This document shows, piece by piece, positions 5,577-64,000 of a stretch of DNA of 64,000 bases. The position numbers and the translations under genes were made by a program. Below the pieces are notes generated by a model that made no database searches, had not been told where the DNA came from, and was given only the letters and a program-made list of their open reading frames with translations. How positions within the stretch are numbered: the first letter of the stretch is position 1; each line of letters starts with the position of its first letter. Origin of the DNA: Heterotrichella gracilis (lineage: Eukaryota; Sar; Xanthophyceae; Tribonematales; Xanthonemataceae); the NCBI GenBank assembly GCA_032358255.1, contig JAULBX010016083.1:1-64000 (forward strand), written 5' to 3'.

Positions 5577-8500
5577 TCACAGCCACATGGGCTTGTCCAT
5601 CTTCTGGTACACCGCCTTCACCTGCAGGGGGAATAGCATAGGGGGTCAGAGCCAGGCCACCATAAACGAAAGTGATGGCTGTCCCTGCCTGAAGGCAAAT
5701 CCAACGCCGCGTGGGGCCCATCTACCGAAAGAATAAAGAAAGAAAGCAAGGGGACACACCAGCAAAAACCAGAAGGCAAGCGCACCCAAAATGGACCATG
5801 GCCAGGCTCTGAACCAGGTGCAGGACTGGTAGGCCAAGCCCCATAGGGCTACCACATACCAACCATTCAGTTGGAAGGAAAGAGAAGAAGCGTGCAAGCT
5901 ACAGACATTGGCACTCAGCCCCCCGTCCCTCCCCTTGCCAGCGCTTGCTTGCGCAACTGGACTCCACCCCTCCACCCGCACCTGTGAGTAGTGGTCCAGC
6001 GCATACTCCCCCTTGTCCCTGCCCAGCCCGCTGTACTTGTACCCCCCAAAGGGCACCGCCGAGTCGTACACATTGTAGCAGTTGATCCACACGGTGCCCG
6101 CCTTGAGCCCCCTGGAGATGCTGTTGGCCACGTTGAGGTCGTTGGTGAACACGCCGGCGGCCAGGCCGTACATGCTGGAGTTGGCGCGGGCGACAACCTG
6201 GGTGGGTGGGTGGGTGAAGGTTCAATGCAGACAAGGAAAGGCATGTCAGAAGTCCTGACTAGCTCCAGGGCACGAGGCTGAAAATGCAGACAGCAAGTGG
6301 ACCATTGCTGTATACGCATTACATGCCAACCCACAAAATTTAAGTGCCGCCCAACCTTGCATGGTTCAAATAATGTACAAAATCAAGACAAACTTATTTA
6401 CCGCCCCACCTCATCCAGTGTTGAGTATTTGAGGATTGACTGCACGGGTCCAAAGATTTCCTCCTTGGCGATTGTCATGTCATCAGTCACATCCGTGAAC
6501 ACAGTGGGCTCAATGAAGTAGCCCTGGTCACCGCTGCGAGCGCCGCCTGCGGGGAGTGGCCATGTTTATTTTTTACATTTGCTGTGCGTGTGTGTGTCAA
6601 GCCACCCCAAATGGGGGCACTTGCACATTGAGGAGTGAACACAGCCAGGGCAGTCAGATGCACCTGCATGCCAAGATGCCATGATAAAGCACAGCTGCAC
6701 TCCCCAGCCTGAACCCTTTGCACTTCGATAGTGTGCACTGCCGCTCACCTGCCATCAGGTGGCGCCGTCCGCCTTGCCCTACACCCTACACCGTATACCC
6801 TACACCTCCACCCTCCACCGCACACCCTCCACCTCCACCTTCCCCCTCCACCCCAACAGCCCCCACCTGTCATTAGGGTGGCGCCCTCCGCTTTCCCCTT
6901 CTCAATGTAGCTCATGATCTTCTTGAACTGGTCATCGTCAATCTGCACACCCACAAACAGGGACTGCGTCAGCGCATAGCCCGGCAGGGTGGACATCCTT
7001 ACTTGACAGCTGGCGACGCCAATCCCTTTGCTTCCACACCTGCGCCCTCACGCATTAGTTCTGTAGTACGTCACGACCCCCATTCATGATCACAGCATCA
7101 TGGGGACAGGAAGATTCTACAGCTGTCAGTGCACCGACGCCAAATAGCAAGATTAGCAACCGCGTTAATCGCACGGCGACAGGCAGGTGTAGCATGCAAT
7201 GTACTAAGGTCCTCCTGGTGGAGGCAAACCCCACGCGCACCCAATGCCCTGCTACCTCCCCTGCATCTCCATACTTGGCAGGAGCCACACTACTAGCAAG
7301 CCCACTCGATTGATACCGACCTGCTGCAAAACCCTACACCTGAGCTCCAAGATTTTGCTAAACACATGCGCTCTGTAGCATGGGCACGTGGTACCCCACC
7401 TGCGGCCCCTGCTCCACGTCACCAAAGGGATCTCCCACGGTGCGCGCCTTGGCCCTCGCCGATGCCTTCTCCACGAATTCATCGTAGATGTCCTCATGCA
7501 CAAACAGGCGCGACCCAGCGGCGCAGCACTGGCCGTGGTTGAAGAACAGCGCAAAGTGGGCATCCTCAACTGCCTACGGGGGGCCAAGGGGGGTGGTGGG
7601 TGCAAGTGGATGGTAGCGGAATGGGGAGGTGGAATGTTGCCACCCCCTGTCTCAAGTTGATAAAGTAGGAGTGTACACTGGATACGCCATACGGCAGTGA
7701 ACGGCTTGGATGTCTTTAGGTGTCCCTACACATCCTGCATGGCTGGTATATGGCCCGCACCTGTGGTGATGGGTGCACGTTTGGCATGTGCAGGCCTTCT
7801 TGGAGCTCACAGCTTTGGCCAAACACCACATGCCCACACCAACATGCCCCCTAAACCTTTATCATTGCACCCAAAACCCCTAAGAAACCCCTGCCCTCAC
7901 CTGGTCCACGTTGACGTCCTTCCACACAATGGCGGGGCTCTTGCCGCCCAGCTCCAGGCTGACTGGCTTCACGTTGTCAGCAGCTGCCTTCATCACAAGC
8001 TTGCCAACCTCAGTGCTGCCAGTGAAGGCAACCTGGGCAAACAGGTGGAAACGTTCAGGCGGTATGATTACCGATCATTCGCAATGCAGTTATATTTCTC
8101 ACTATTTGCATTGCTTGAATGATCAGATGTTTAAATGTACTTATATAATGTGATCATATTCAGATTAGATTTGACAAAATTTTAAATTGGATTTAATTAC
8201 AGGAATAAACCATATATTTTTGCAGGTGCGCCCGGTTCCCTGACATAAATCCGAACACAGCCGCGCGCACCTTGTCCACATTCGGGTGCCCCGCCAGCGC
8301 CGCGCCGGCCGTCTCGCCGAACCCTGACAGGATGTTGAGCACGCCCGGCGGCAGCCCCGCCTCCAGCGCCAGCTTGCCCGCCAGCAGCGCAGTGAGCGGC
8401 GTCTGCTCCGCGCACTTGAGCACGATGGTGTTGCCGCAGGCCAGGGCAGGGGCGATCTTCCAGGCCATCATCAGCAGAGGGAAATTCCAGGGAATGATCT

Positions 8501-10489
8501 GGTGAGGAGGGGAAGGAGGGGTGGGCAGGTGGTGGGTTGGAGGGCTTGTTAGAGCAGTGGGGTGCAGTGGGGTCAATGCGCATACAAAGCAGTGCAGCAT
8601 GGGGCATGCGGCTGGGTTGCCAGGTGGGCCTTGGCCTTGCCTGGACGTTTGGAACAGCCCTCACACAGCGCCCTGCCCTGGTGTCCAAGGAGCTTGGAGT
8701 GCTACCTATTCAGAATGGTGTGCGAGGCCTGTTAAGACGGAGCTAGGTGCCTCAGCTTACCTGGCTGCACTGCCGTTTTCATCCAGGTAGGTAATCAAAT
8801 TTGGCAAGGACCCCAACAGGGACTAGGGTTGAGGGTTGAGGACCATACCTGCCCCACCACCCCCAGCGGCTCGTGCAGGGTGTATGCAAAGAAGTTGCCA
8901 AAGGCGCTGTCCACCGGGATTGTCTTGCCGTGGATCTTGTCTGCCCAGCCTGCGTAGTACCTGAGGTGGTCCACGGTGAGGGGCACGTCGGCCACGCGGC
9001 TGAAGAAAATGGGCTTGCCATTGTCCTGCGGAGGGGGTGGTTGGGAAAACTTCGCAAGTTGCTGGAACAGGCAACATTTTACTAATTTTATAGACTTTTA
9101 AATCATCCTGAATTGCGTTGCTTTTGCTTAGCAAAATATTGTGGTGATGAGGGTGCTTGCAGAGCGTAGCAGGGGGGGGTAACACGCATGTGGGGAATAG
9201 CAGTCTTGGTTGAGTGACGATGTATGCAACGGCGACGCCATGCTGAAGCGTTGCTGCATTCCATTCACTCCCATGCACTCAGCATTCTAATAATTTGAGA
9301 TTTTTCAGGCCCTCACCAGCGTCTCCAGCTTTGCAAAGGTCTCCTGGTGCTGCTCAATGAGGTCGGCAAACTTGTAGATGATGCGACCGCGGTCCTGCGG
9401 GCCAAGGGAGGCACAAATTGGTCAATGCCACGATGCAGGAAGGCTGTCCAGCTATATGCATTTGATCGCGCGGTACAAAGCTGGACAGCTGTGCCATCCC
9501 CATGCCGGCATGCCACATGCTTCAATGCCAGTCATTGCCATGTAGTAAGATCAGCAAGACTGTGACACAAGACACCCACTGGCATCACACCTTTGCAGAC
9601 ATCCTTGGCCATGGGCCCTCGTCAAATGCCTTGCGTGCAGCTGCCACTGCCCGGTCCACATCCGCCTTGTCAGCCTCGGCTACGTTCATGATGGGCAGGG
9701 CGGTGCGGGGGTCGATGCTGGCAAAGGTCCTGCCCGAGATGGCGTCCACCATCTCACCGCCGATGATCAGCTGTGGTTGTAGGCAGGAAAGGGGTGTCAG
9801 CGCCCCGAAGGACGGGCATTCAGCTAGCCGCGGGTTAGTAAGTGTCATGGTAATGGGCATGACCAGTGGCATGACAGCCAATGGGCAGGGGGACAGTAGA
9901 TGGGCATTGTGCAACAAGAGAAGCCGCAGTAGCAGAACAAATAATAAGTGCAAAACAGATAGGCCAGATAAATTTGGGATAGAGTTGGTACTATGGGGCT
10001 GGCACACGATGGCTAGACCAGTACTGCATGGCTATATTGTATCTGCTTGCACAAGCAGCACGTATACGCACCTTGGTTGGCACCTGATTGACAGCGGCAG
10101 CCACATCTGGTGCCAGGGATGACCTGTAAACGGGGAGCACCGTGAGTTCTGGCATGCGGTGGTATCGATGTGGCATGAGCCGGTGTGAACCCAATTGCCA
10201 GCGCACCACCTACTTAGCGCCACAGACCGCACAGGTGGCATAACAGCTGGAAAAAAGGGAATCTTATGCATCAATGGGTTATTGAGCGTGTACACTACTC
10301 AGGGAGTTTGATGGCACCCATTCCATGACGTAAGTTACGAGAGCCATGGCTACCATTCCGACTGGATCAAGCTCAGCCGCGCGCCACTTACATGTTGCGG
10401 TCCTTGAACGCCACCACCTGGGCGAACCTGGGTGCCCTTGCCGGCTTAGGCAGGGCATTCTTGCTGAGGGCAAGCGCAAGCCGATACAT
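5577..10489 (-). CDS. ALDH2: Mitochondrial aldehyde dehydrogenase, ALDH2 family
   Basis: Twelve exons (minus, high to low): 10489-10392, 10123-10072, 9770-9591, 9394-9317, 9025-8849, 8498-8271, 8032-7901, 7573-7400, 6942-6867, 6546-6410, 6197-5982, 5621-5577; 530 residues. The enzyme oxidises acetaldehyde and similar aldehydes to acids with NAD+. Exon 1 ([20 protein letters not shown]) is a basic, amphipathic mitochondrial presequence. Catalytic residues are all visible: Asn200 in IIPWNFPL, Glu298 in LELGGKS and nucleophile Cys332 in [10 protein letters not shown]. The Glu-Cys spacing of 34 equals that of human ALDH2 (268/302). The C-terminal [18 protein letters not shown] segment is also typical. 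It is head to head with the WDR48 gene, start codons about 700 bp apart. The intron below exon 9 carries a decayed copy of the exon 9 donor end. Confidence 0.95.
6748..6866 (-). repeat. Decayed exon 9 donor copy plus C-rich minisatellite, ALDH2 intron 9
   Basis: On the plus strand, 6748-6783 (CACCTGCCATCAGG, TGGCGCCGTCCGCC) repeats the exon 9 end and donor at 6861-6900 (CACCTGTCATTAGGG, TGGCGCCCTCCGC). The copy keeps a GT donor but reads through an in-frame TGA. Between them lies an array of CCCTACACC and CCTCCACC units (6778-6860), likely slippage-generated and pyrimidine-rich. Confidence 0.65.
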
Positions 10490-20313: not shown

Positions 20314-22680
20314 TGGACCCAGCCTAGCACTAGCCCTAGAGGCCTATGGTGATGAGGCGAGTTTGTACAAGTTTGCGCACACCCCTTGTCCACCAGAGAG
20401 GTCACGTTCAGCGTCACCTCGACCCCTCTGCTGTGCCTTCTCTGATCAGCAGCCACCTATACGCAGCAGACGTGAGGCACCTCAATATTGGTATAATTGG
20501 GGTCACGCAGCTTTGTGTAGCCTGAAGGCTTATATAATAGATGAAGGAGGGGGGTTGCTAAGGTCTCTGGTGGCCTGACTGCAGGTGCACAATATACCGT
20601 ACAATTGCTTTAGCCCCGCAGCAACTGACCTACATCATTCTTCTAATTTATCTCGCCTAGGTTGCTTGACACTCCATTTCTTGCAAGCTGGATTGGGCTT
20701 GATGACGTGACCAAGTTTTGACATGACAATTTCAAATGTACCTTGCAAGCAGCAGTCCATTCAAATGAACCATGTTTGGAACACATGAACAAATTCCGAT
20801 GTATCCTAAAGCAGTCTATTCAAATGTACCATATGTGGAAATGTACCAAGTGTTACCAGCCTTCATTTTCATAATTCATTCATACATGACAGGCGGTTGT
20901 AGGGTACATGTTTTTTGACAGTGTTCGCCACACTGGTTTCCGTTTCATGAAACAGCCCAATTTCACCCCACTTTTCCTTGCATCAAATAGTACGTGATAT
21001 GGCTTTGTGGCCCACAATTTGCAAGGCAAGAGGGGTATAGTTGCAGCCAGCAGCCCCTCCTATGGTCGTTTCTACTTTCCTATGACCAAATTTTCTACTG
21101 GTTGCTCAGATAAATACTGGATACATGTTGTGGTGTATTACCACTTGCTCCTGACGAAACAGACCTCGCCTAGCTGACAAACCAGAACTCGACTGTTTTC
21201 TTGTGTGTGGATAGAACCCATTCTTGTTGCACAATGCGATGAAGGTGATTACTGCTGGATTACATGAACACGCATGGTCGGGGACGGCACCCCCGCACCA
21301 AATGCCCTTGCCCAACTTCCTGTAACCATAGCCGTTGCCAAGCTTCCCTTGGGCCCCCTAAACCGTAAACCCTAAACAGGCCAGCTTCTTGTAACCACCG
21401 CAAGGGGTGTGGCGCCAGCACTGCGCAGCATTGAGTGATTTGGGGTTTAGGGTTAGGGGTGGCCATTGGCAAAACCAGGTGCCCAGTGGCCACCACGCAT
21501 CACGGGGGCTATTGTCGACAAGGGATCTAGATTTGTAATTATATACATTTTATTTATTTATTTATGTTGATGGCGGCCTGTGTTGGACTTGCTGGTGAGT
21601 GACTCTGATGCATCATGGGTGTGGGGTGCATCCCTCGCGGGGCACACGGTGGTCGACTGACATATGTATGCAATCTGCCCCAGGGTTTGGGCCGCACAAA
21701 ATTACTTACAGCGCTCAGCCAGGTGACCTAGGCGGCCTCAGAAACTCACGGCGGCACACTACACGCAAGCAATGCTTGATTGAGGCGGGCAGCAACCAGT
21801 GGAATACGGCGTGGGTACCAAGGGCATAGTATTCACTGGTACGAAGTCTCAGATCCTGATAGAGCGCCAAAGTGACATCATGATGCAGCTGAATCAGAAG
21901 CCTACCAGGTCCTGTCACTGACCCAAACGCAGGCACTGTGCCGCAACGGCTCATTGACAGTGAGATATTATATCTGCAGGCCTGAACTTCATGCTCTGAG
22001 AGCATGGGAAAGCACTAAATCTACCAAGTGCTTTCTGGCAATAAAAATTTCTACCGGTGATGCCTCAGTGCGCCCAGCTAACATGCAAACTACACTGAGT
22101 ACATCCGTAACCGCTGCACTGCAATTTGAAAAAAGAATAGAAATAATACGTAATTATTCTAAAAGAATTTGGCACGGCATAGCTGCCCTGTGAGCAACAA
22201 GGTCCCCTCGCATTTTCCAAAATGTAGTTGTTGTATTTTGACCCAAACACATGTGTACAACTATCGCATAACCTAGGTACTCAGGCCTATCAAAATTGCC
22301 CTACATTAATAATTCCCTCAGCGCAGGAGAGCAGTGACGTTGGCCTTTATTTTTGGCCTGGCAAAAGGCCAAAAGGCACTTCGAATTGTTGGTTTCACTC
22401 AAGTTTCAGACCATGAAACACCCCCCTCTAGCGACTGGTACTATTGAGCAATTCAGCAACAAGAAAGTGACATCCTGACAATACGCTGACGCACAGCTTC
22501 CACAAGGATCCAGCACGCACCACAGCATTCCCATTATGGTGCTGCCCTTCCCCCGCACCGAATGGCCCATGCTCAAGCCGCAGTTTGACTATGCGATGCG
22601 CCCCACACCGCGGCGCGCTGGCTGCAAACACCACACCTGGCTCCCAAGGTGTGATGAGGTGGCGAAGTGGGCTACAGCCA
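20314..22680. other. 2.4-kb AT-richer intergenic region, no gene supported
   Basis: Short unrelated frames only. It contains imperfect direct repeats of TCAAATGTACC (about 20730-20850) and two telomere-like tracts in opposite orientation, CCCTAAAC-type near 21356-21380 and GTTTAGGG-type near 21437-21457. No transposon protein or terminal repeat seen. Confidence 0.45.
21356..21457. repeat. Facing telomere-like tracts
   Basis: CCCTAAACCGTAAACCC and GGGGTTTAGGGTTAGGGG lie about 60 bp apart in inverted orientation, like two short interstitial telomeric blocks meeting head to head. Only two to three heptamers each, with substitutions. Confidence 0.6.
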
Positions 22681-25600
22681 TCACAGCTGGCTCTGCATGT
22701 GTGCGGTGGTGGTGTCCAGCTGCTGCACCGCGGCCTCAAGCTTGCAAACCTGCAGCGCAGCCAGCCACCGTCAGCTCGTCGCATCCAACTGCAAGTTGAT
22801 GTGCAACCTGTGACTTTGCACCTGTGATTTCTGCAGTGCTAGCGCTCGAACTTTGTGTGTTCCAGGGGGTGAAAGACGGCCAGTCCACTTGCACATAAGG
22901 GGGGGTAACAAACGCACTCGTCTGTAAGTGCTTGGGCCCTCATGATCAACAATTCCGAGCGGGTGGCCCTTCGCATCTGGCTACGAGGCAGTCCTTCCAC
23001 CCCCCCTGTCTCACCTGCGCCTCCAGTTCAGTCAGCACTGCTTCCAAAGGCGTGCTGTCCTCCGCCTTGCTCCGCACATTCTATGGGACATGGGATGCGG
23101 GAAGTGTCGGTGACGTGGCGTGGTGACGTGGCGTGCTGCGTTCTGATGGATCAATCATTGCATGCAAAGAAATGCAATGGCAGAAGCAAAAAAGCACTGC
23201 AAAGTCCGTGCCCTGCCTGGAACCAAGATGCCAACGGCATTGCCAGGACCAAACTGGTTGCTAAATGTGGCTGTTTTGCTGGATGCATGCAACTACACTG
23301 CAATGTACCTTGGCGAATGCAGCCATTGCCCCAGCATAGTCTGCCATGGTCTCGTACTTCTGCACAAAAGCAGGGGACGCATGGTCACTTGGGGGGTGAA
23401 ACCGCCAAGCAGGGACATACAATTGGTACAAGCACGCAAGGCAACCAACAGCAATGGAATAAACATCACTTGCATGCCTTTGCACTGCGGGCCTAATACC
23501 TGCACTTGCGCCGCCCAATAGGCACTGTGCCTATGTGCACCCTGTCTTCGATAAGGCACGTTGGTCCAGGAAAAGAAGCAAAAAGGAGGGCCATACCCTG
23601 ACTAAATGATGTAAGCAGGTAGGTTTGGGTTTGGGTTTAGGGTGTAATTAGGGTATTTCCCGCACCTTTGCCGCCAGTGTGTTTGCGTGTGTGAGCAGGT
23701 CCAGCTCCACTCCCCCCACCTCCCCCTCCACCTCCAGCACCGCCGCCAGCTCCTGCAGGTAAGCACCCGCACTGGTGCTCAGCCGCTGGTGGGGCAGGTG
23801 GGCGCTGGCGGTGGACATGAGCAGCGCCTTGCCTGACGGGCTCGCCCCTGCAGCCATACCACCAGTGAGCCACGCGGGCACATGCACAAACCAGCATATG
23901 CATATTGCACCTCCCATGGCATCCACGTGCATGTCGCTTGGCCATTGCAACGCACCTGTGAGCGATCTCTGACTGCTCCACCCCGCCGAGGCCGGGCTGC
24001 TCTGCAGCGACTCATCCACCACAGACTCGCACACCGAGCTGGCAGTGGGTGACGCAGGGGGCGGGTGCGCGTCCTGGCCCTCAACCATGGTGGGGCCACA
24101 GCCGCTGCCCGCATCGGGTTGCGTGGGTAGTGGCGTGGACCCCGCTTCATGCTGAGTCAGCGCCAGCGCAGCCACCTCACCCGCCAAACTGGTCTCGCCC
24201 GGGTGCAGCGTCCCTGGCCCGCTTGCACCGCCCCCCTCCACAAACACCTCCTCCTCCCCATTGGGCAAGGTGATGGTGGCGGTGTGCGGCACGGGTATGA
24301 GCCCAGCTGCATGGAGCAAGGGCTGCGCTACCTGGTCGGGGTCCGACCCCTCAGCGGTGCAGAAGTGGCGGATGATGTTGATGATGAGCTCGGGGCGAGG
24401 CGTGGTGCCCTGCAGGCTGTCCCGGCTGTGCTGCTGCTGCTGGACGCTCATCCGCCTGCACAGCGGAGCGGCAAATCGGTGCGCGCCACTCCTCCGCCAT
24501 GCGGCGCACGGATGGTCGGCCATGGTTGATATCGCATGCTTCTCTTTTTGGAAAATGCAACAGAAGCAAAGCAAAATGTAAAGTAAAGCAGAAGTAACGC
24601 AAAATAACGTGTGTAATTTTATTTTAGACAACATCATGTATTTACCCCATTTATAATAATTAAATTGGATATGACAAAGGTTACCGTGTTTAATATCTTG
24701 CCCAGCAGCTCTGATCACAGCAGCAAGGTGCACATGCAGCATGCCCATACCCTCACCCGCTTGTGCTTACTGCCGGGAAGATCTTCTCCATTGTGACGCC
24801 AGGTGTCAGCTCGGGGTGGCCCTGCACCGCCAGGACGCGCTGGCCCCACATCCACACCTCATGCGGCGCACTGCTTGACCAGCCCAGCAGTTGCGCGCCT
24901 GGAGGCATCTTCACAATCTGGTGCCGGTGGGCGGTGGTCAGCTTACATGGATTCCATGGATTGCATGGATGCCATGGATTCCACGCAATTAGTGACCGGT
25001 GCCGGCTGGGGATTTTTTTGTGACCTTTACATGCGAGCCCCCGGAAGGATGCATTTATCCACTGCAGTGTGCACACCCCATGCAACCACCTCCTTCACAA
25101 ACTGCAGTCACCCAAGCATGTTCAAGCAATTGTCGCAGTGCGGCAACTGTGGAGCACAAGGCAAACAGGCCACTGAGTAAAAGTATCAAGCAAAATTTTT
25201 GGGCGCCATTTACCTGGTCGCCATGGCTTTCGATTAGGGATAGCCCAGGTGGGTCGGCACCAGCTCCCTTTTGGCTGTTTTTGAGTGCAAACTGGTAGCT
25301 GGGTAAGCACTTTGCAGCCTCTGTCAACGCAATGTCCTCAACTGCAGTGCAACCATGGCGGATTAGAGAATGCACTGGTGCCGTATGATACTTTGAAGGT
25401 GTCCGCAGGGCTGAGGGAAGAATCTCAACCAAGTGAAGCATGCATTTGGCTGGCAACTGCAATGTCCCAGAGGGGCGCTGCCCACCTTGGAGCACGAAGG
25501 TTCCTTCAGGGTGTTTGACCACCTCCCCGCCCAAAGAATGCGCCAGTGCCTGCAAGCGCAGCCCAAGCGCCTGTTCAGCGTACGTTTCACGATTGCTAAC

Positions 25601-26270
25601 TGGGCAATGGCCTGGACCACTCGACCCCATGTGGGGAATGCACACTCAGCGCTGACCAAAGCAGATCCCTTGACAGTCCAGCCCGGCTCACCTGTGCACC
25701 AAAGCAGATGCCAACCAAGCGCGCCCTGTGAGAACGCTCTGCAAACTCGCGTATCCACGAAAATAGGGAGTCTAGCCAGTCAATATCTGTTTGGTAAACA
25801 GAGTTCCTGCTCCCAGTCAGGATGAGCCCGTCAAATGTGTCAGCCTCTTCAACAGTCGGAAAACATTTTTCCCAGCACTGCACAGCACAGCACAAATAGT
25901 TTAAATTGGGTTCCCTGGCAGCGTGGGTTCAAAGAAAGGCGCTTAGACTCTAAGTTAGAGACCCGGTGGGTATCATCCCACCTTGTAATAAACCCACTCG
26001 GCATCTGGCTCGCCAAGCCGTTGATGGAACTGCAGGCATACACAGAAGACTTTTGAGAGTCACTTCGAAAATATTGCTGGCAAGAGACGGGCCAAAGGGG
26101 GTTTCAATCTGGACTGGACAATGGGCGAGCTGGCGGGTGGGTGCAAGGACATATGCATGCGTGGACAAAAGCGCTGCTCATCAAAGGGAGTTGCTTACTC
26201 TCCAACCGCCACGCCACTTGATAGAGTCCTCGCACTCCAGAACTGCGTATCTTTTTGGTCGCGTACACAT
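22681..26270 (-). CDS. Class I glutamine amidotransferase (gamma-glutamyl-peptidase-like) fused to a BLOC1S2-like coiled coil
   Basis: Eleven exons (high to low): 26270-26199, 26029-25982, 25877-25692, 25549-25486, 25341-25214, 24917-24757, 24455-23956, 23847-23666, 23359-23309, 23080-23015, 22749-22681; 508 residues. Residues 1-245 are a GATase1 domain: FDGLILTGSR, nucleophile Cys98 in GICFGAQ, His200 and Glu202 in VQGHPEL, and the family C-terminus FPAVSTSGRMS..PELIINIIRHF. After a Ser/Pro-rich linker (about 250-385), residues 415-508 resemble BLOC-1 subunit 2 of plants: LLTHANTLAAKKYETM, then LTELEAQVCKLEAAVQQLD. The GATase C-terminus and the linker lie in one uninterrupted exon, so no stop separates the two halves. 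Intron 25485-25342 is 144 bp and open, so its removal is inferred from homology. Two genes cannot be excluded without transcripts. Confidence 0.7.
23625..23660 (-). repeat. Telomere-like tract next to a splice donor
   Basis: Plus-strand GGTTTGGGTTTGGGTTTAGG, then a second TAGGGTA, lies within the first 45 bp of the intron that follows the exon ending at 23666 (minus). Confidence 0.6.
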
Positions 26271-26942: not shown

Positions 26943-28477
26943 ATGGCCGCTCAGATGGCCCGTATGGGTCCACACAGGTTCCAATCGTTTGCCGGCACAC
27001 GCACAGCCACGCAAGTCGTAACCCCTCGATCACACAACCCGCGTGCCAGTGCGCGCTCTGAGGGTGCGACAAGCAACAGCAACGCTGCAACGAAGTGTTT
27101 GGACGTGTTGATCCGAAAGTTTGGCAGCCAAGCAGAAACAACCAGTTTCTCAGAACAAAACTTGGGAGGTATTGGCATGTACAAATGCATGCATGCATTG
27201 CATGCATGTCGCCCACCAGCACCTGAGCGCTTGCATACGCACAGTTCAACTGTATCAATGACATCTAAGTGGTTTGGTGGGTGTCCAGAGAGGAGCACTG
27301 CGTTTCTTCTGAGCGTGCTGTACACCTGCACCCTCCAGTGTGCCCTGCCAGCTTTTGCTGACGAGACACTGCCAGTACCAGTCATTCATCCAGAGCTTGC
27401 GCCAGACCAGTCAAAGTATGAGGCTTCTGACGAGCAGCTACGAGAGGCTGCGCAGCTCCTGCAGAAAGGTTTGAACGCAACAAGTGTACAAGTGAGTGCG
27501 TTACCCCCCCTGTTGGCTACCTCCCTGACCCTGCCTGCACACCTCCACAGGTCCGGGATCTGCTCCCCTGGTGTTGCCCATGTCTTTTACATATGTGGCA
27601 GGCTGTTCTTCATTATATATCATTTTCTCTTACTCTCTTATTCTGCCGCACGCTGTTGCATCCAGGGTGTGATGGCCTAGGTTGTGTTGTGGCGTTGACA
27701 ACAAACCGCGTTTGCATTTGACAGGAGGAAGAGGCACTGTGGACTTCAATCATTGAGCGGTACAGCGATGTGGGAGCCAACTGGGCACCAGACGTGGTGG
27801 GCAGGGCATGGGGAAACCGTGGCAACGCCCGCAGCAGGCAGGGCAAACTGCAAGAAGCTCTGCTGGACTACAACAGGTCCATTGAAATCTGCCCTTGGTC
27901 AGTGGATCCAGTGCTGAACAGGTATGTCTGGTGCTGTTTCAGTTCGTTGGCACTGCACATGAGAAGACACATGTGAGCTATATTGACTTTCATGTTCTGC
28001 AGGGGTGTTGTTTTGGAGGCGTTGGGCCGGTATCCGGAGGCGATTGCAGACTATCAGGCGGTGCTTGACGTGGCGCCAAAGGATCCTGCAGCCTGGAACA
28101 ACATGGGCAATGCCAATGCAGCGCTTGGCAACTGGGCTGCAGCGGCCAAGTACTATGGCACAGCCGCCCAGCTCGCACCTGAGTTTTCCTTCGCCACCGC
28201 CAACCATGCGCTTGCAGTGTATCAGCTGGGAGACACCCAATCCTCAATGCGTGAAATGCGCTCGCTGCTGCGCCGCTACCCCGATTTCCCAGATATGCGC
28301 GCTGCGCTGGCAGCGGCGCTGTGGGCCAGCGGGTTGGAGGGTGACGCAGAAACCAACTGGCAGCGGGTGGACGATGGGCGATACAAGAACCTGGGGTGGC
28401 TGCAGAACACAAGGAAATGGCCACCACAGCTCATTGCGGACTTGAAGGCGTTTTTGGAGATCAAAACGATTGCTTGA
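26943..28477 (+). CDS. Chloroplast TPR protein, probably thylakoid-lumenal
   Basis: Four exons: 26943-27168, 27289-27491, 27725-27921 and 28003-28477; 366 residues. The N-terminus (MAAQMARMGPHRFQSFAG) is Ser/Arg/Thr-rich like a plastid transit peptide. It is followed by a hydrophobic stretch TAFLLSVLYTCTLQCALPAFA ending in an AFA cleavage site near residue 99, as in lumenal targeting signals. Residues 160-290 hold three to four TPR units: AWGNRGNARSRQGKLQEALL, then GVVLEALGRYPEAIADYQAV and WNNMGNANAALGNWAAAAKY. The conserved tail ends with WPPQLIADLKAFL. TPR proteins of this type assist assembly of photosynthetic complexes, but a specific partner cannot be named. Intron 1 (27169-27288) is 120 bp and has no stop in frame; it was called an intron because it is GT-AG and rich in TGCATGCA repeats. 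Confidence 0.8.
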
Positions 28478-47543: not shown

Positions 47544-49176
47544 TGTGGTGGTGGTGGTGCTGACCACCTTGGCCTTGGGGCGCTGAGGATCTATGTTGGG
47601 GGGCGGCTGCTGCAGCGAGGGGTGCTGCAGGGACTTCCGTGTGTCTAAAAGGGTAGGCGGAACGGAAGGGTCACGCCGCTTGTTTGTAGTGGCGGTCGCC
47701 TGCAGCGATAGGACTCTGTAAATCAATTGTTCGAATAAAAACAGGTCGAATGTTTGAGCAAAGTCTAGTGGCAACTAGCTTCACAGCTCAGGTACTTAAT
47801 AAGTAACTGCACAATAGTTTACACCAAGACTGGTCACTTACCAACAGCTTCCCACGTACAGGATATAGTTTTGCTCCAAACCAGCGACGAGGAGGTGCCA
47901 CAAAAATTTCGAGGTGATGCGGCGATGTGCTGAAATGTCAAGTGCACACAGCGGAAGACTTCGACGCCCCCTTATGCCAGGTATGGGTTTTGCTTGAAGA
48001 AGCGTGACGAGTCGATTGCAACTCGCCGCGCCGAGGTGGCACCTATCCCTTATGCGAGGCAAGCGCAGTCACGATCCGATTAGGCAGGTGCATGGAAGGT
48101 GCATGGAAGCGGTGGATCCATGCATGAAATCCACCTAGGCTTGCAAATTGCCCTAGGCTAGGGTCTGGACAACAAAAGTCATTTAATAAATATATGATAA
48201 TATCTCTAAAAATTGACTAGTACCTGCCAGGGAGAGCGGAGACCCATCACTTATTTGAAACCGTTTTGTGGCACAATCCAAACCATAGCATGGCATGATG
48301 GGTTTCCGGAGAGTCCAGAGCAGACTTTGTCCTCCAACACGCCGTTGAACGCGCGTACGAGTGCTATATAGCCAACCCGCGTATATATATGCCATATATG
48401 CCGCCTTTGGCGTCAGACTCTGTTTTCTTTTCCCGAGATATCAAATGCACATTGTCAAAGGCGTTATGTGTGGTTCACCTTGAGCTTTGAAACCCTCATC
48501 TTGTTATAACAATCACAGTGTCACTCAAACCACCAGCCAACTGCGGCAAGACTCCCCCACGAGGGTCGAGCAAACCTATTCTTGGTGCCATGTCCAGCCA
48601 AGTCCACTTGGGGGTACACTTTCATTATAAACTGCCAGTCAACTAGTAGTAATATAACGCCATTGTAGTGTAGGAATGTAACGCAAAATTGCATGATGGT
48701 AGAACTTTAAGCCTTGGGACATTTGACCAGTCTACTTACTGTTCTGAAATGAACCTATTTTTAGTACAACGATTGAGGCAAAATGTGCACTATTGGCAAA
48801 TATCGTTGCACCATGCAATTGGCAATATGCCTGCAGACGTAGCACAACCTGGTCCACCATTCTCCAAAACAGGCTAATGATTCTCCAAAAATGGTGTGTC
48901 CTTCTATCACCCAACCTAGAACGCAATCCAGCCAAGCTCAAACAATTTCATCCAATGCTCGAGTGACACATGCCTCAACCCTACATTGCCCCACCAACCA
49001 AATCAACAAACCAGCGGCACCCTCCCAGGTCCGCCATGCAGGATGCACCCATAAGCTGCCACACCACCCACGTCCCAAGTCACATATGACCCATCTTATC
49101 TACAAAATGTGCATACTATGGTTATAAGCCTTGCAAAATACAATCCAAGCAGCTGCCCACCCATCCAGTTCCAAGC
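47544..49176. other. Intergenic / 5' leader of the transporter gene
   Basis: The part near 47544-47850 probably holds 5' leader exons of the transporter (an acceptor at about 47647 and a GTAAGT donor at about 47840 on the minus strand). The rest is AT-richer with no recognised gene; 48890-49080 is C-rich and poor in G. Confidence 0.4.
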
Positions 49177-52100
49177 CTACCACCAGGCCCAGGAAGGCTT
49201 GTTGTTGCTACCGCTGGCCATGACAGGCTCAGAGGCGGCGGGGGTGCGGGCCAGTGTTGCGTCCAGGCTGCGAGCGCGCCAGCGGCGGATCCAGTCGCGC
49301 GCCTCAGCCACGTTCTCGGGCAGCTCCTCTGCAGGGCCGGCTGTGGTGCAGGGAAGGTGATTATGGAAGGGTATGAAAGGAACCAGAGGCAGGAAAATAA
49401 GCACCGGATTTTTAACGATAAACAAAAATATTGCCATCTATTAGATATTATACTGACAAGAACAATAACAATAACAATACCAGTGTTGCAAGATAGCTAT
49501 TTGACAATTTGGCTTGTAAATGCCAATACGTTACCATACGATGCAGTGGCAAATGTGTTTAATCACTCCTGTCCCAGCAGTACCCAAACTCCTTTAAACA
49601 ATATGCCCACGCCATTCACTATGGCTTGTGACCCAGGCAATCACTGCCTATGCTTCCATCCCACGTGTCAACGGCGATGGCGACGCAACCCAAAGTCACC
49701 CATGCGCCTGCCTATCATGCTCACCAGCCAGGCGCGCACGCCATGCCGCAATCCACTCAGCAGCCTCCACAGCGTTGGGCAGCTTGTCGCCAGCTTCGGC
49801 AGCAGGGGCGGCGGCAGGGGGGGCGGCAGCCTCGGCCTCAGCCAGGCGCGCCCTCCAGGCATCGATCCATGTGCGCGCCTCAGCGGCATTGGGCTCGGCC
49901 GCTGCCGCGTCGGCCGTACTGGGTGCAGGGGCCTCGGTGGCTGTGGCCTCCTGCAGGTGGGGCACCGGTGGCGAGTGAGGTGCAGCAGGCTGTGCAGGGG
50001 TATGACAGCAAGTCTCCAATCAATGTTGGCAACTCTCCAGGTAAAATATTTAAGTCTTATATGGGCTACTCTGCCGCCCATAACTGCTGGGTGTACGCCA
50101 AGTCAAGGCGGATGCAGTATATGCATTACTCAAATTGCGCCATTGCCACTCGGCGGCATACAGTCTCGCCCTGCACCCCGCATCCCACCCACCTCCTCAG
50201 CATTGGCTAGGCGCGCCTTCCATGCATCAATCCACTCGCGTGCCTCTGCTGCGCTGGCTCCTGCGCTGGCGGCGGCCCGCCCGTCATCCACCACAGTCAC
50301 GCTGTCGGCTGTGGCGCTCTCAGATGCAGGGCGCACGCGGCCGCCGCCTCCAGACTCCCTCGCCGCAGCCACACGCGGGTCTGCCAGGATCTCCTAAGGG
50401 GTTCCAGGCAAAGGGTTAGGGGTCTCTGAGGTGCTTGCCATTGTGCATTCCAGCGGGTTCTATGCCATCATTGCCAAAACTCAAGACATATGCCGTGAGC
50501 AAGGCAGCATACACCCTCAGCTTGCAACATGCAAACCAATTGTTTTTGGAAACCACGATAACACGATTGAATTGAAGGCTGAACACACAGCAGCGCATTT
50601 GACACCGCGACTGTCCACCACCATCCACGCGCTTCCCACCTGCTTCCTCTCCTCAGTCACCGGTGGGGGCACGGGCGCAGGTGCAGGGAAGGGGGGCAGC
50701 CCTGCCGTCGCGCGCTTCCTGTCCACCACCAATCCCAGGAACATCCGCAGCCAGTCCCCAGAGCCCATGGTGCGGTCCTGTGCGTCCGCCGCCTCTGCGC
50801 GCCGCACCTCAAACGTCTTGCCAGCCATGGCAGGGCTGGCCAGCGCTGCTGCAGTGAGTGTGGCCACCTCCTCACGCGTGATACGGCCAGAGATGCGGTC
50901 GCCTGGAAGGAGCGGGGGGAAAACATGGTGGGTCTGGTGTGATGATGGTGTTATGTATTTGCTGCCACCTTAAATGCACAACCAAACGCACTTCAGCCAG
51001 GAGGACTTTAATACATCACTGGTGGTATATTAAAGTCCTCCTGCTTCAGCACCCGAAAATTTGATCTGCGTCCATCCTTGCCACTACCATAATGAAAGCG
51101 CGGCCAGATTGACTAGTATGCGCCGCAGCATCCAACATGCGTGCAACCCCATAAGAAATCCAGCTGTCAGCCCCCGACATCCCATTGCCTCACCCTGCGC
51201 CGCCTCCAGCAAGGCGGGCTTCATGTCGTCGTCACGCGCCACCAGCCCAGTGGGGCGGATGACTGTGTAGGCCAGGCCGCTGGCCCGCACCGCGTTCTCG
51301 CCGCTGTACTTGTGGTTCAGCACACCTGCAGGGCGGATGTGAAGGGCATAGGTATAGGGAGTGGACTGGTTCTGCCTCACACTGAGCCAGTTGTCACCAC
51401 CAGCCAAGGCTTTAAGGCGTTAAGGGTCCAGGGTGTGCGCTCAAGCCAGTGGACGGAACACACCACATACACGTGGCTTTCGAGCATTGCACTCTACAGC
51501 CTACCCTGCTATTCAATGCAGGGGCAATGCACAGGCAACACGTTCCAGACTCTTCCGCAAACACGCTCCAAATGAATGTGTAATCCCCAGCCCGGCACCC
51601 CACGCACCCCCGGGGTTGAGCTGCACAATGGGGATGTCCTTCTTGCGCGCCTCCTCGTCGTCCCCTATGGCAGCATTGCGCTCCACCCCTGCCGATGAGA
51701 TGACCACCACCTGGGGTTTGGCCTCTGAATAGGCGCTGATGCCACCTGCCAGCTGCAGCTCAAAGGTGCCTGGGTGGTAGTTGGGGTTGGTGTAGCCGTT
51801 GTACTCAAAGCGGCTGAGGACCTGCAAGGGGGAGAGGGGCAGGTGAGGAGGGGGGAGGAAGCACCTGGGAGCATCTGCACTCCATGCTGAGGCGCTCTAT
51901 GTCCTAGGATTCAATTTGATTTGCTTGCATGATCCCGTAATGAACAGTAAGTAATTGGTATTCATAGTTGCCAATGCCAAGTTCGACTTTGTGCGTGTGC
52001 ATTGTGCACATGCAACCCTGCCACGGTGGAAGCTTGTCCCTGGCAGAAACCCAACACAGCAACATCATCCACTCACCAGCCCAAACTGGCGCACTTTGGA

Positions 52101-55006
52101 TGCGTCCAGCGGCTTCGCATTGGGGTCGAAGCGCGCCCGCTTGACCGCCACAAACTCGTGCCACGGCAGGTACACGGTGGACCACTCCCCCGCCACGGTG
52201 TCAAATTGCGCCTGGTAGGTGTCCTCAGGCACGCCCTCCTGATCAGCCTGTGGGGGAGGGGTTGGACTACTTAATGCTGGCGTGGTGTAAGGGTTGCTGT
52301 GTGCGGGAGGGTTGGCAAGACTAAGCCACAGGTGTTATGCAACACATTGCATGTGATCCAATGTAAGATATGTAGTGCAAGGACAGGTGTGCATAATGCA
52401 GTGAGTCCATGGACAACCCTCTTCAGCGCAAATACAGACGCTCCTGCAACGCAGCATGAACTCCACCCCATGCCCAGCATCCCTTCCCCCCTTCCAAATC
52501 CCCTCCTCCCCGCTGCGCACCGTCTTGAGGTTGAGCTTGAATGTCTGGCCGTCCCCCTTCACCTTGAGGCACACCCCGTCATAGGCAGACAGGTCCAGGT
52601 CAAGGGGGGAGGTGCGCGCGCCGCAGAAGCCGCCTCCCTCCACCACCAGCTCGCCCCGCCAGGTGGCGCCGCTGCCATCGCTGCTGGGGCCCAGGCCGCT
52701 CTGTGACTGGCCGCCCATGATGACGTCATCCAGGCGCTGCCACACCGCCAGGTCCTCCGCGCTGCGCATGCTCAGCACCTCCTGCAAGGGGGAAAAACAC
52801 AGGAACGGTAATTACCAGGGCATGTTTGCGGGCTGCAGCATTACACTTGGCAAGTACATATTAATTAAGATTGCAGCACCGTTTGCTTGAATGCATGGTT
52901 TTGCATCAGCAGCACTTCCTAATGGATGCCACTGTTTGCTCCCTTCCATGGCAACCATCCAATGCCCTGCAACCCCACCGCCTTGCATGCTTGTGGCCCC
53001 ACCTTTGTCTCCCGCTTGACTGGCTCCATGACCCCCCTCAGTGCCTGGGCCACGTTGGCCACGCCCTGGGCATCGACGCGCTCAGATGTCATGTTGTCAA
53101 GGTACCTGGACGATGCGGATGAGTTAATTGTCACAGATGACAGTTCATCATATCACGGATTCTCTAAGGTCCAACATGTTTTTTTGTTTCTTCCACTCGC
53201 ATCGATTGGAAGAGAGGGGAAGACTGTGTGTTTGTAATAAAGCTGCATGTGGAGGTAACAATATGACGGCTCATGCTTGGGAGGCACAGTGGATGCTGCT
53301 CCTGGCTGTGTGGTGTGTAGGGTACCAAGTGGGGATCAACCCTAAGCAGGAGGTGCATTTGGAGCACATCACAATGAACCCTTACCAGCCCCCCAACAAC
53401 CCATGCTGTAGATGGTGCATTACTTCACAGGCAGTGCTGGCAGTACTCCACCCACCCATCCCCTCACATGCGGTGCAGGCAACCACCCACCCACCACGTT
53501 GGCCCCCCCCACTCACCCCATCCCCCCCTCCGCCAGCTTGCCAAACACCGGCCCCAGCGCCAGCACCGCCTGCGTCACCCCCTTGAGTGCCTCGCTACTG
53601 ATGCCCCCTTGCTCAGTCACATCCACCCCCCCCTCGATGATGAGCGCACCGCTGCCGCCCGCCTGGTACCCCTCCTTCACACCCGCATCCTGGAACACCT
53701 GCCTGGCGCGGTCGGCGGATCGGGCCATGGCCACAACGGTGCGGCCAGAGGCAAGCAGCTGGGGAAGGGGGTGAGGGTGAGAATGCGTGTGAGGGTAGGG
53801 CAGGATCACATGCGCATGGCAGGCGCATGGAGCACCATATATATCAATGCAAGGAGGGTGTAATAAAGAGTAATGCACTGATGCCTGCACGGCTGCTATA
53901 CCACAGCAGTGCAGTGGCCCATATATGGTGGTGTATGTACAGACGCCACGTGGATGAACGTGTGCTGTATCAGTTCAGTTGATCCAGGGCCCTGCCCCGC
54001 AGCTCTGATCGCCAGCTACCATACCCTAGGGCGTGTGCCTCACCTGCGCCACCACCTGGCGCCCCAGCCTGCCGCTGCTCCCAAACACAGCAACTGCGTT
54101 GTCGCGCGGGATGGACGCTGGCGCTACTGCCTTGCTGATGGCTGCTGCACTGGAGCCCGCACTGGGGCCACCGGATTTGCCCAGGCCCCACAGCAGCAGG
54201 CCACCACCCAGCACTGCAAGGGGAAAAGGGGGTGAGGACTAGGGGAGTGGGTGGTGATGGCGGTAGCAGAGCCGCAGATGGTGGTAGCAGGGCCGGCAAT
54301 CATGTGGCAAAATGAGATGCACTTCGGGCTCGTGTGGTGTATATGGCCATATCAACCAGATAGTATGACAACCAGAAAACCCAATGCATCTGCACCCGGA
54401 GCCTGGTGATCCACTGTGTGATGTCACCAGTAATCTACACTTTAAAAGACTCTACAATGTCAATCTGGGCACCATCTGAATCGCAGTTCGGTACCTGCGA
54501 TGATCCTGACCATGCCACACCAGCGATGGTCCATAGTTGGTTCCTGGCTGTATCCTAGCTACTGAAGGACAGGACCACACACGGGCACATGCACACACCC
54601 TGCTGCACCACGTAGCTGCATGCCAAGCGCAAGCCAACATACACAGCCACATGAGGCCATAGCCAGCGCAACTCCACGCCAGGTAGAAGCTTATGCAACG
54701 CTGTGGATATGCTGGACAGGCATATCCAGCCTCACCTGCAGCAGCTGCAGCTGCGGGGATGCCATAGGGGGTGGCCTGAAGGAAGGGGTTTAGGGCCGCC
54801 TCAGCACCCACCGCCCCCAGCACCATGGGACCGAGAGCTGCCGTGCAGGGGGCGGCAGCCACCCGCCCTACCCGCCTCACGTAGTGGGTGTGGACGCACC
54901 GCCTGAGTGGCAGGGCGCCAGCTGAGAATGGCTTGCTACCCACTGCCCGAGCAGGGACTACGCGTTGTGGTCGCATCAAGCGGCTGGCCACCACTGTACT
55001 CTGCAT
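49177..55006 (-). CDS. Chloroplast SDR-CIA30 protein (HCF173-type) with C-terminal WIxxWRARL repeats
   Basis: Twelve exons (high to low): 55006-54736, 54213-54044, 53758-53517, 53105-53003, 52781-52521, 52247-52077, 51821-51608, 51325-51194, 50902-50640, 50393-50193, 49950-49725, 49340-49177; 805 residues. A Ser/Arg/Ala-rich transit peptide (MQSTVVASRLMRPQRVVPAR) precedes a Rossmann domain with VFGSSGRLGRQVV near 130-145. A CIA30 domain is inserted at about 263-430 (WQRLDDVIMGGQSQSG, FCGARTSPLDLDLSAYDG, FVAVKRARFDP). The SDR half resumes with VVVISSAGVERN and AYTVIRPTGLV. This insertion is the hallmark of HCF173 (psbA translation/stability) and of its paralogue type; which one this is cannot be decided here. 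The last 150 residues carry four copies of an EARxWIxxWRARL motif. Confidence 0.88.
50998..51043. repeat. 16-bp perfect inverted repeat in an HCF173-like intron
   Basis: CAGGAGGACTTTAATA (50998-51013) pairs with TATTAAAGTCCTCCTG (51028-51043) across a 14-nt loop, inside the intron between exons 8 and 9. It is the size of a MITE end or a small hairpin. No target-site duplication is clear, although CTTCAG occurs on both sides. Confidence 0.7.
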
Positions 55007-58444: not shown

Positions 58445-61400
58445 TCACTCATTGCGCCCCTTTGGTGTGTGGCGCCGCACTGCCTCCGCCACCAGCACTG
58501 CATCCCGCACCGCCGTCACGTTATGCGCACGTATGATGTCCGCCCCTTGCATCACGCACAGCGCCGCAGCTGCAGCCGTAGCGTGGTCGCGCGCATCACC
58601 ACCCTCGCGACCTGCACCGCCCACCATGCATACAGTCGGCCATCCGCATTATCGGCAGTGGACAACAGTCTCAACGCATAATATTCCGTGACAGGGCCAG
58701 GAAAATGGAACCAAAAGGCCATGCAATGCGGTCCACAAACATACAGGTACAGAATGTGTGCCTCAAATGCTGCCAGCATACGCTGGCCAACCCCCTCTCA
58801 AACTCCCAACCCCCACCCACCCGTGATCTTGCCAAGAAAGCCCTTCCTTGATGGGCCCAGCAGCATGGGGGCTCCCCGCAGCGCACCAGATAGTTGGCGG
58901 CGCACCAGCGGTAGCCCAGACAGCAGTTCAAGGTTACCCTCAAGGGTTTTGGAGAACCCTAATCCAGGGTCCAGCACCATCCGCCAGGTTTCAATGCCAG
59001 CCTGCACACATGGCAATGCCACATGTGAAACACCGTCGACACAAACATAGATTGCGCTGGTTGGGCCCGTAACTGCAGCACACACATAAATCTGCACCTG
59101 ATCAGGAACCAGAAATATAAATGTACTCCTGCCCGTGCTCCCACCTGCATTGCTGCCTGTGCCCGCAGCTGCAGCTCCCGCCCCACTTCCACACACACGT
59201 CGCTGTAGGAGGTGTGCTCACGGGACTGCATGGTGCCGGGGTCGCCGCGCATGTGCATGCACACGTAGGGGGCGCCTAGGCGGGCCACCTGAGGGGGCAA
59301 GGGGGGCTGGTGTCGCACCTCCTCCAAGGGGATGAAATGCTGACCACTCAATGTGATCGACAGCTACGGCAACCATGACACCAACCTCAGCAGTTCAATT
59401 GGGCCTGTGTACCAGATGCATACAGGCAGGCACATCCCAGTGGCGTGAGTCAGGTTTCACCCTCACCACCGGCAGCATGTCTGGGTCCAATGTCCCGCCT
59501 GACACGTCATTCACTATGTGCGCCCCTGCCGCCACAGCTTCAGCCGCCACCTCCCCATAGAACGTATCAATTGATAGTAGTACCCCTTGCAGGGAGGGCT
59601 TGCTGGCCAGCGCCCTGAAAATAATTATAGCGTTGGTCAGCATGCAGGTGCAATCAAAATGATCGTCTTCAGGTATAGATTTTCAATGCATGAGCAGAGG
59701 ATGCACTCATATCACAAAATTTTGCCATCCACATGCCACCCATCTTTCCACAAACGTGCCTCTTGCCCCCTGCCCCGCCCACCTGATAACCGGCACCACC
59801 CGCTGGGACTCCTCTGCCGCTGATAACCGCAGCGCCCCTGGTCGGGTGGACTGGCCTCCCACATCGATAACATGCGCCCCCTGCTCCGCCATCTGCACCG
59901 CGTGCGCCACCGCCGCCTCATGTGCCACGTATCGCCCGCCGTCACTGAAGCTGTCGGGCGTGACGTTGAGTATGCCCATCACCTGCACGTGCTCCCGCCA
60001 CCGCCACAGGCGACCGTCCAGCAGTGGGATTGCCACCGCCAGGCTGTCACTGCACTCCTGCGCATGGCCTGAGGGCAGCAACAGGTTGTCAAATGGGCTG
60101 TCCAGGATCAAGTATAGGCGCATGGATGTGCGTACTGCTCCTAGCAGGGCTGGCCGGCGTTGCCACGAGCTTGCAGCCACATGTTTGATGTGCGAATGCT
60201 TCCTCCTTATGAATCCAACAACAATGGGCATTGGCCCCATGGTAAACGGTCCATGGAGCATCAGCACGCACCGCCCTGCTCCCTCCATTGCCTGGCTGCC
60301 TCGCCCAGCATGCTCCACACACCACTACCGCCCTCCTCCCCCGTTGCCAGGTCGGCCAACGGCGCCTGCACAAACCCCCGCTCATGCCAGCGCGGGTGTG
60401 GCACCTGCAGGGCGGGCAGCTCCACCCGCCTGTCACCGTAGAAGATAATGTCCAGGTCGATGGGGCGGGGGCCGTTGCGCAGCCCCGACAGGTCTCGACC
60501 CAGCTCCACCTGGAGGCCAGGGGGGGGAGTGATACGGCATATAAACAGGTGGAAAGGATGCACCTGAAAGTACATCCTTTTGACCCAATGAGTACAGAGA
60601 TATGAAATACACGAGGCACTGCATTGGAGACAGCCTAGGAATTGCATGTCGCCAAGGGTACCCGGTCCTGTCATCCGGATGCATGCTGCAGCATGGGGGC
60701 TTGATCTGCCTCACATGGGTCATTTGCCATGGTATGCATGTGGACAGGCATCAACTGGCACCGGTGGCACCGGTGTCAAAGCAACAACTGTGCCTCGCTT
60801 GCCCCCGCCCCACCTCCACCTCCTTGAGGGTGGCCAGCAGATCCAGCGGCGGCAGGGAGGTGCGCAGCAGCAGTGCCCCATTCACAAAAGGTGGCTGGTC
60901 GGTCACATAGGCCGCTGCGCTCTCATACAGGCGGGAGGTGGCGGCTACCTCCACACCACGCGCGTGCAGCAGGGCCAGGCAGGAGCGGATGTTGGCAACG
61001 CGGTCGCCCTGCGCCATGCCATTGGGGCATGGTCACAAGCTGTGGGGCCGTACCCAATGAAACAGCCCCCGTGGCCAAGTAATCGTGGTGTTGAGCAGGG
61101 TAGCAAGGGCCACATGTGAGGCAAAGCGCCTTGGATGCCCAATGCATTGCAAAGCCAGCAAATTTTATGCAGTGGCTCACGTGGGCTGCACGGCTTGTTG
61201 CCTCACCATGTTTGCCCCCACGGCCACTGCCACCTCCTCAGTCTGGCCGCCCCCAGCCGCACCGCACTGCAGCCTGCCCTGCACACCCCCTGCTGCACCC
61301 TGCGCCACCGCTCTACTGCAGGCCACCCACACAGCGTGTGGTGAGCTGCCGTAGCAACATATAAAGTACAAGAGTATGGAAGGGTGTGCACTTTCAGCAA

Positions 61401-62920: not shown

Positions 62921-63420
62921 TTACTTCTCCAATTGCCTTGACTCTTTCCGTGAAACGCCCTGGGCAATCGCCCTCTCGCGCTTGATGGTCAATAGCTGGG
63001 CCACCTGCACACACGGGGACAGGGCTCACCCACTGACTCACATACTGACTCGCCCCAAAGCATACCCGAATGGTGTCGCCTGGCCAGTGGACCCACCCAC
63101 TTGGGCTGCTTGAAAGCACCAGCTTATGGGAGTGCAGCCTCCAGTCAAACAGCACACACCTTCCGCTGGTTCCATCCATAGTCGCTCGACTTGATCTCCT
63201 GCCGCGTGCGCTGCTTGATGCGCAATTGGAACAGTTCGCTCTTGCAGTTTGACACCTCCTTGTCAATCTCCTCGTCTGTCAAGCTCCTGAGGTCAGCTGC
63301 CTTGCTTGGCTTTGCCATGGCTACCACCTGCATGGCCCTTGCTGGCCTCACCTGCAGGGAACTGGGCTGAAACGCTGCCACCCGTCCCCTGAAGGCTGAC
63401 GTCATGCTGCTGGCTTGCAT
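62921..63420 (-). CDS. RPL29: Chloroplast 50S ribosomal protein uL29c
   Basis: Two exons: 63420-63160 and 63004-62921; 114 residues. The N-terminus (MQASSMTSAFRGRVAAFQPS) is a plastid transit peptide of about 35-40 residues. The mature protein has the uL29 helical hairpin: LRSLTDEEIDKEVSNCKSEL, then FQLRIKQRTRQEIKSSD, and after the splice VAQLLTIKRERAIAQG. Length and layout match nuclear-encoded uL29c of plants, longer than bacterial L29 by the transit peptide and a short tail. It binds 23S rRNA near the peptide exit tunnel. Confidence 0.93.
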
Positions 63421-64000
63421 GGTTGCACTCTCTGTAGGAATGAAACACATCACCTGAGCGGGTTGGTGCAGGTATGTACAGCCAGGTTGGACCCACAACG
63501 TATATTGCGGGCTAGGACTTCACACCCAGAGAGATTCAAGCATGGTGGCTGGTGATAGGGTGCCCTTTAATTGCGCCGCACGCAATTAAGAGACAGAAAA
63601 TGAAGAAGGAAACAACGCAAAAAACCGTAGTACACGTGAATGGGTTGGCTGCTGTATTGCTTGCTGCCAAGAACGCACACCATGCAACTAGACTTGGTCC
63701 ATTCCAACTCATGACAGTTGTAGAGACTACACCTGCCCACACCAGCCACTAAATGAACAGCAAGCGCAGACCACAGAGCGGAGCTAGTCCACAGAGGTTA
63801 CTGCGTCCATTGCTTTACTAAACCAGCCACATCCTGACGAACGTTCCGTCCGAAAAGCGTACAGACCAAAACGCATGGTGGGTGGACCAATATTTGGTGG
63901 GTGCATGGAGTAAGGTGCGACAAGGTGACTGGGAGCGGGGAATCAAAGAGGTTGCAAGCCACATACTTGAACACAACCAAAAACAGCACCTTGAGCTCAG
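63421..64000. other. uL29c promoter region and window edge
   Basis: No gene supported; short frames on both strands lack motifs. The uL29c 5' leader should lie in the first few hundred bases. Confidence 0.4.

Follow-up and report, generated by a model that had tools for sequence, protein, structure and literature searches.

BLOS2, the second subunit of BLOC-1, is also a subunit of BORC. An excerpt of PMC5035748 describes Arabidopsis BLOS1 and BLOS2 as homologues of BLOC-1 subunits interacting with SNX1, and the solved chain of BLOC1S2 is a stand-alone protein of 132 residues. The solved chain of gamma-glutamyl peptidase 1 (GGP1) is likewise stand-alone, with 260 residues; according to an excerpt of a review (PMC11449216), plant GGP1 and GGP3 act on glutathione conjugates, which accumulate in the knockouts, and the pathways in which they take part are largely vacuolar, whereas the title of a paper cited in the same excerpt places the enzymes in the cytosol. 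The subject of the present analysis is a gene of the xanthophycean alga Heterotrichella gracilis, located on the minus strand between positions 26270 and 22681 of the first 64,000 nucleotides of contig JAULBX010016083.1 (assembly GCA_032358255.1), hereafter called the window. In this gene a GGP1-like enzyme and a BLOS2 domain appear to be joined: unlike the solved GGP1, the predicted chain runs ~250 residues beyond the enzyme domain into BLOS2 and, unlike the solved BLOC1S2, BLOS2 forms here the C-terminus of an enzyme.

The production of two unrelated proteins from one locus has a counterpart in green algae. The bicistronic loci described in an excerpt of PMC11291117 have short first open reading frames (medians 357 and 291 nt) and a depletion of ATGs ahead of the second open reading frame, their polycistronic mRNAs being translated by leaky scanning. 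The locus of H. gracilis likewise brings two unrelated proteins together but differs from the loci of that excerpt in that, with the supported splice, neither a stop nor a start separates the two halves, the first part is long and the ATGs are not clearly depleted. As judged from its sequence, this nuclear gene probably encodes a single fused protein of 508 residues. Both families are known and it is their combination that is new; no description of a fusion between an amidotransferase and BLOC-1 subunit 2 was found in the open-licence text of PubMed Central.

Gene structure and the two domains

Eleven exons, placed by eye on the sequence and subsequently joined by a script, yield upon splicing a single open frame on the minus strand (26270-22681), which begins with an ATG at 26270 having an A at -3, ends with the stop codon 22683-22681 and runs without interruption through both domains. 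The introns are GT-AG in 10 of 10 cases and the acceptor ends in TGCAG in 8 of the 10. These coordinates, as well as the openness of the joining exon (24455-23956), had been proposed in the original prediction and hold as proposed. The elements of the gene are the following.

26199-26270, minus strand: exon 1, with the start codon at 26270, MCTRPKRYAVLECEDS
25982-26029, minus strand: exon 2, amidotransferase domain
25692-25877, minus strand: exon 3, amidotransferase domain with the nucleophile motif GICFGAQ (Cys98 codon from 25706)
25486-25549, minus strand: exon 4, amidotransferase domain
25342-25485, minus strand: intron 4, 144 nt, GT-AG, without in-frame stop
25214-25341, minus strand: exon 5, amidotransferase domain, ESHGDQ
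24757-24917, minus strand: exon 6, amidotransferase domain, GHPE (His200, Glu202), ending at donor GTGAGG
24756-24770, minus strand: rival donors of exon 6, GTAAGC (from 24770) leading to a stop at 24353 and GTGAGG (from 24756) leading to the fusion
23956-24455, minus strand: exon 7 (joining exon), probable amidotransferase C-terminal tail (~24455-24358) followed by a Ser/Pro/Gly/Ala-rich linker
23848-23955, minus strand: intron 7, 108 nt, GT-AG, without in-frame stop, with a non-coding score
23666-23847, minus strand: exon 8, end of the linker, internal Met397 (codon from 23818) and beginning of the BLOC1_2 match (from 23761)
23309-23359, minus strand: exon 9, BLOC1_2 domain, KYETMADYAGAMAAFAK
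23015-23080, minus strand: exon 10, BLOC1_2 domain
22681-22749, minus strand: exon 11, BLOC1_2 domain and stop codon

The segment 25549-25214 can also be read as one exon, the length of intron 4 being a multiple of three and the frame staying open through it; since removal of this intron gives a gap-free alignment of the enzyme to its relatives, the segment is better split. Retention of intron 7, the other candidate considered, would keep the frame but was rejected, the intron having the score of non-coding DNA (z 0.78). Third-position guanine-plus-cytosine (GC) content is 0.53-0.62 in exons 1-5 and 0.65-0.86 in exons 6-11, the rise occurring within the enzyme part, away from the fusion point. 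The introns contain a few repeats: a 9-base tandem repeat (CATGGATTC, ~4 imperfect copies with 86% matches) at 24946-24983, in the intron preceding exon 6; a short interstitial run seen by eye to be telomere-like (CCCTAAACCCAAACCCAAACCT) at 23621-23643 on the minus strand, just within intron 8; and a 13-base tandem repeat, present in two exact copies, at 23109-23135 in intron 9, shortly upstream of exon 10.

Both domains had been named in the original prediction and both were recovered above the curated cut-offs when the predicted protein was searched against the Pfam profiles. Residues 38-211 match GATase (PF00117) with an E-value of 4.2e-11 (43.3 bits vs a cut-off of 22.8), and Cys98 in GICFGAQ and His200 and Glu202 in GHPE, the catalytic positions of the amidotransferase family, are all present. 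Among the sequences of solved structures in the PDB, the two closest relatives are GGP1 sequences (9k7i, 9.2e-17, and a second one, 8.8e-16); the nearest of these, 9k7i, has the Cys and the GHPE in common with the enzyme half, with which they align, and the second has GNPE in place of GHPE, as expected if its catalytic His had been altered. None of the 14 NCBIfam families listed for this half reaches its cut-off, and the best of them, the bacterial glutamine amidotransferase PRK09065, has 80.1 bits vs a cut-off of 205. Enzymes of this kind are widespread, matches at E ≤ 0.001 occurring in 220 of the 299 bacterial genomes searched; a scan of viral contigs gave no relatives of the enzyme half. 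Its sequence assigns this half to the class-I glutamine amidotransferases, probably of the gamma-glutamyl-peptidase-like kind, with Cys, His and Glu in place.

At the other end, residues 416-507 match BLOC1_2 (PF10046), the profile that the domain has in common with the known subunit BLOC1S2, over profile positions 3-94 of 96 with an E-value of 9.4e-13 (48.8 bits vs a cut-off of 33.4), and the profile is matched at E ≤ 1 by none of nine controls made from this half (eight shuffled, one reversed). Relatives of the BLOS2 half were found neither in the prokaryote genome contigs nor in the viral contigs scanned.

The joining exon and the linker

In six frames, the window has only one stop-to-stop frame (435 codons) longer than the one containing the joining exon (24766-23651, 372 codons). 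Frame 0 remained open in none of 2000 dinucleotide shuffles of the whole stretch, in 5 of 2000 of the segment 24352-23650 and in 57 of 2000 of the spliced linker plus exon 8. The linker, 132 codons of which are in exon 7, has a total length of ~160 residues (162 from the tail to the first BLOS2 helix); it had been called Ser/Pro-rich and is indeed rich in Ser, Pro, Gly and Ala in exon 7, and when searched alone it matches no Pfam family at E ≤ 1. Opposite the joining exon, the plus strand has an open frame of 132 codons (24131-24526).

The coding signal was evaluated with a codon model whose training set was made up of 1656 codons, in 27 segments, from other genes of the window; 25 of these segments were matched in later Pfam or PDB searches. 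With stops ignored, the fusion frame gives the linker a score of 0.14 bits per codon vs -0.39 and -0.27 in the other forward frames, the reverse frames giving -0.22, 0.11 and -0.44; with stops penalised, the scores become -0.48 and -0.45 in the other forward frames and -0.31, 0.02 and -0.57 in the reverse ones. Compared with 1000 shuffles, none of which reaches it, the score in the fusion frame has a z of 3.76, and the same comparison gives 3.37 for the first half of the linker, 3.71 for the amidotransferase tail and 2.74 for exon 8 upstream of the domain. The best score in six frames is negative in 10 of the 10 introns of the gene (-0.19 to -0.50). The codon test tells the forward frames apart well and the strands poorly; the strand is given by the domains flanking the linker, and the near-equal reverse-frame scores at the joining exon are probably a mirror of the codon rhythm of the fusion frame.

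What precedes the linker depends on the donor chosen for exon 6, GTGAGG (24756) continuing into the fusion frame and GTAAGC (24770) leading into another frame that ends at a TGA (24353). In a global comparison with the tails of 27 bacterial homologues, the fusion-frame tail has a z of 3.39, reached by 0 of 300 shuffles, and the rival-frame tail a z of -1.38, reached by 277 of 300; scored against one another, the 27 homologue tails give values of 0.3 to 20. In hmmsearch with a local hidden Markov model of these tails the fusion tail has an E-value of 2.7 and the rival tail of 24. Thus, the idea that exon 7 opens with the normal C-terminus of a GATase1 domain is borne out by the global comparison and not by the local ones, which are not significant, and the assignment of the beginning of exon 7 to an amidotransferase C-terminal tail is moderately supported by the sequence. 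Of 31 homologue loci, 3 have no recognisable HPE; in all of the other 28 the frame ends within 75 residues past this motif, whereas the gene of H. gracilis carries on into BLOS2.

Between 24622 and 22352 the minus strand has no start of a TGTAA or an AATAAA, taken as possible polyadenylation signals that may not be those of this organism; an AATAAA follows at 22351, 330 bases past the stop codon. The lack of both motifs between the two halves counts for one gene and is suggestive only.

The window is eukaryotic, with spliced genes. Its longest stop-to-stop frame (49090-50394, plus strand, 435 codons) has a flat GC content over the codon positions. Other genes are the following.

5649-8660, minus strand: aldehyde dehydrogenase
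27977-28474, plus strand: TPR protein
52338-52811, minus strand: CIA30
59710-60324, minus strand: pterin-binding protein of the dihydropteroate synthase type
63148-63519, minus strand: chloroplast-type uL29 (best match 50S L29, chloroplastic, 4.3e-7)

Alternative readings of the locus

A number of results weigh against the fused protein. In the search of solved structures with the single sequence, BLOC1S2 (9tqb_H) is matched with an E-value of just 0.62, so that the BLOS2 call depends on the Pfam profile. The local pairwise comparison of the tails is uninformative, giving a score of 25 with both donors; the fusion tail ranks fifth of 202 sequences in hmmsearch, with four shuffles above it; and the NCBIfam scores obtained with the two donors differ by at most 2.5 bits, the rival donor being slightly ahead in two of nine families (42.5 vs 42.0 and 45.7 vs 45.6). 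As to the linker, its openness when taken alone is unremarkable (165 of 2000 dinucleotide shuffles), its second half has a coding z of only 2.01, the 0.11 of one reverse frame comes close to the 0.14 of the fusion frame and, when synonymous choice only is scored, one reverse frame (0.23) surpasses the fusion frame (0.16).

Could the locus then consist of two adjacent genes? The amidotransferase mRNA would in this case be spliced at GTAAGC and end at the TGA at 24353, and a separate BLOS2 transcript arising from exon 7 or intron 7 would be translated from Met397 (23818). To its credit, such an arrangement would use a donor nearer to the usual consensus, exon 7 then contributing 34 residues before the stop; the enzyme would be complete up to the HPE motif, as it is with either donor, with near-equal profile scores, and Met397 lies 19 residues ahead of the BLOC1_2 match. 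However, the amidotransferase would acquire a tail unlike those of its homologues, in contrast with the fusion tail, and the tail segment codes better in the fusion frame (0.31) than in the rival frame (-0.66); the alternative donor is disfavored by both the global tail comparison and the coding scores. Furthermore, the coding signal of the linker and of the part of exon 8 that precedes the domain would find no explanation were these segments untranslated, and Met397 has a context (CTCATGT) with neither a purine at -3 nor a G at +4. Overall, two adjacent genes are improbable. Even less should be expected of a bicistronic or alternatively processed locus, in which BLOS2 would be reached by leaky scanning or two forms would arise from the two donors, the fused form being the minor one. 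The widespread occurrence of polycistronic mRNAs in green algae, as reported in the excerpt of PMC11291117, and the presence in the gene of two candidate donors with opposite outcomes would speak for it. Yet with the supported splice no stop exists between the halves, the fusion frame being open from 24766 to 23651, and a separate start and stop for each open reading frame, with a short spacer in between, would exist only with the rival donor. In addition, 15 ATGs (start included) precede Met397 vs a mean of 18.4 in shuffles and, since 159 of 1000 shuffles do not exceed 15, there is no clear ATG depletion upstream of it. These two properties, together with the weak context of Met397, which has no purine at -3, indicate that the locus as read is not bicistronic, although a mixed output through the two donors keeps a small probability.

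The fused protein, left as the probable product of the gene, can itself be given two meanings, both covered by the probability assigned to it. One is a neutral fusion, in which two genes were merged through loss of a terminator and a stop, the domains keep their ancestral jobs and their joining brings nothing. Its gene model is identical and the difference lies in meaning only; the long, low-complexity linker is in keeping with it, as is the fact that no reported link between the amidotransferase and BLOC-1 subunit 2 families was found in the open-licence text of PubMed Central, and nothing in the sequence speaks against it. A neutral origin may equally well hold or fail.

Possible function and significance

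The other meaning is that the joining serves a purpose. The fused protein would be composed of an N-terminal gamma-glutamyl-peptidase-like enzyme, a presumably disordered linker and a C-terminal BLOS2 domain; the latter could assemble with other subunits of the BLOC-1/BORC type and the linker could act as a flexible tether, anchoring the enzyme to endolysosomal or vacuolar membranes on their cytosolic side; the substrates of the enzyme there would be glutathione, glutathione conjugates or similar amides, which would lose their gamma-glutamyl groups. That the enzyme is in this way built into BLOC-1/BORC, physically coupling the breakdown of glutathione and conjugates to endolysosomal/vacuolar trafficking, is rather unlikely. 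Of the original prediction of a fusion linking peptide breakdown to vacuolar trafficking, what stands, at the level of sequence, is the presence of two real domains in one continuous spliced frame with a linker that scores as coding; the functional coupling of enzyme and trafficking is at most suggested by the family names.

What would be the interest of such a gene? Domain fusions are clues to proteins working together, and conservation of this one over long times would argue against a neutral fusion. If private and neutral, it would be a curiosity of a single genome; if conserved, it would put a peptidase of the glutathione type on a complex of membrane trafficking and offer a one-gene handle on what BLOC-1-type complexes do in algae.
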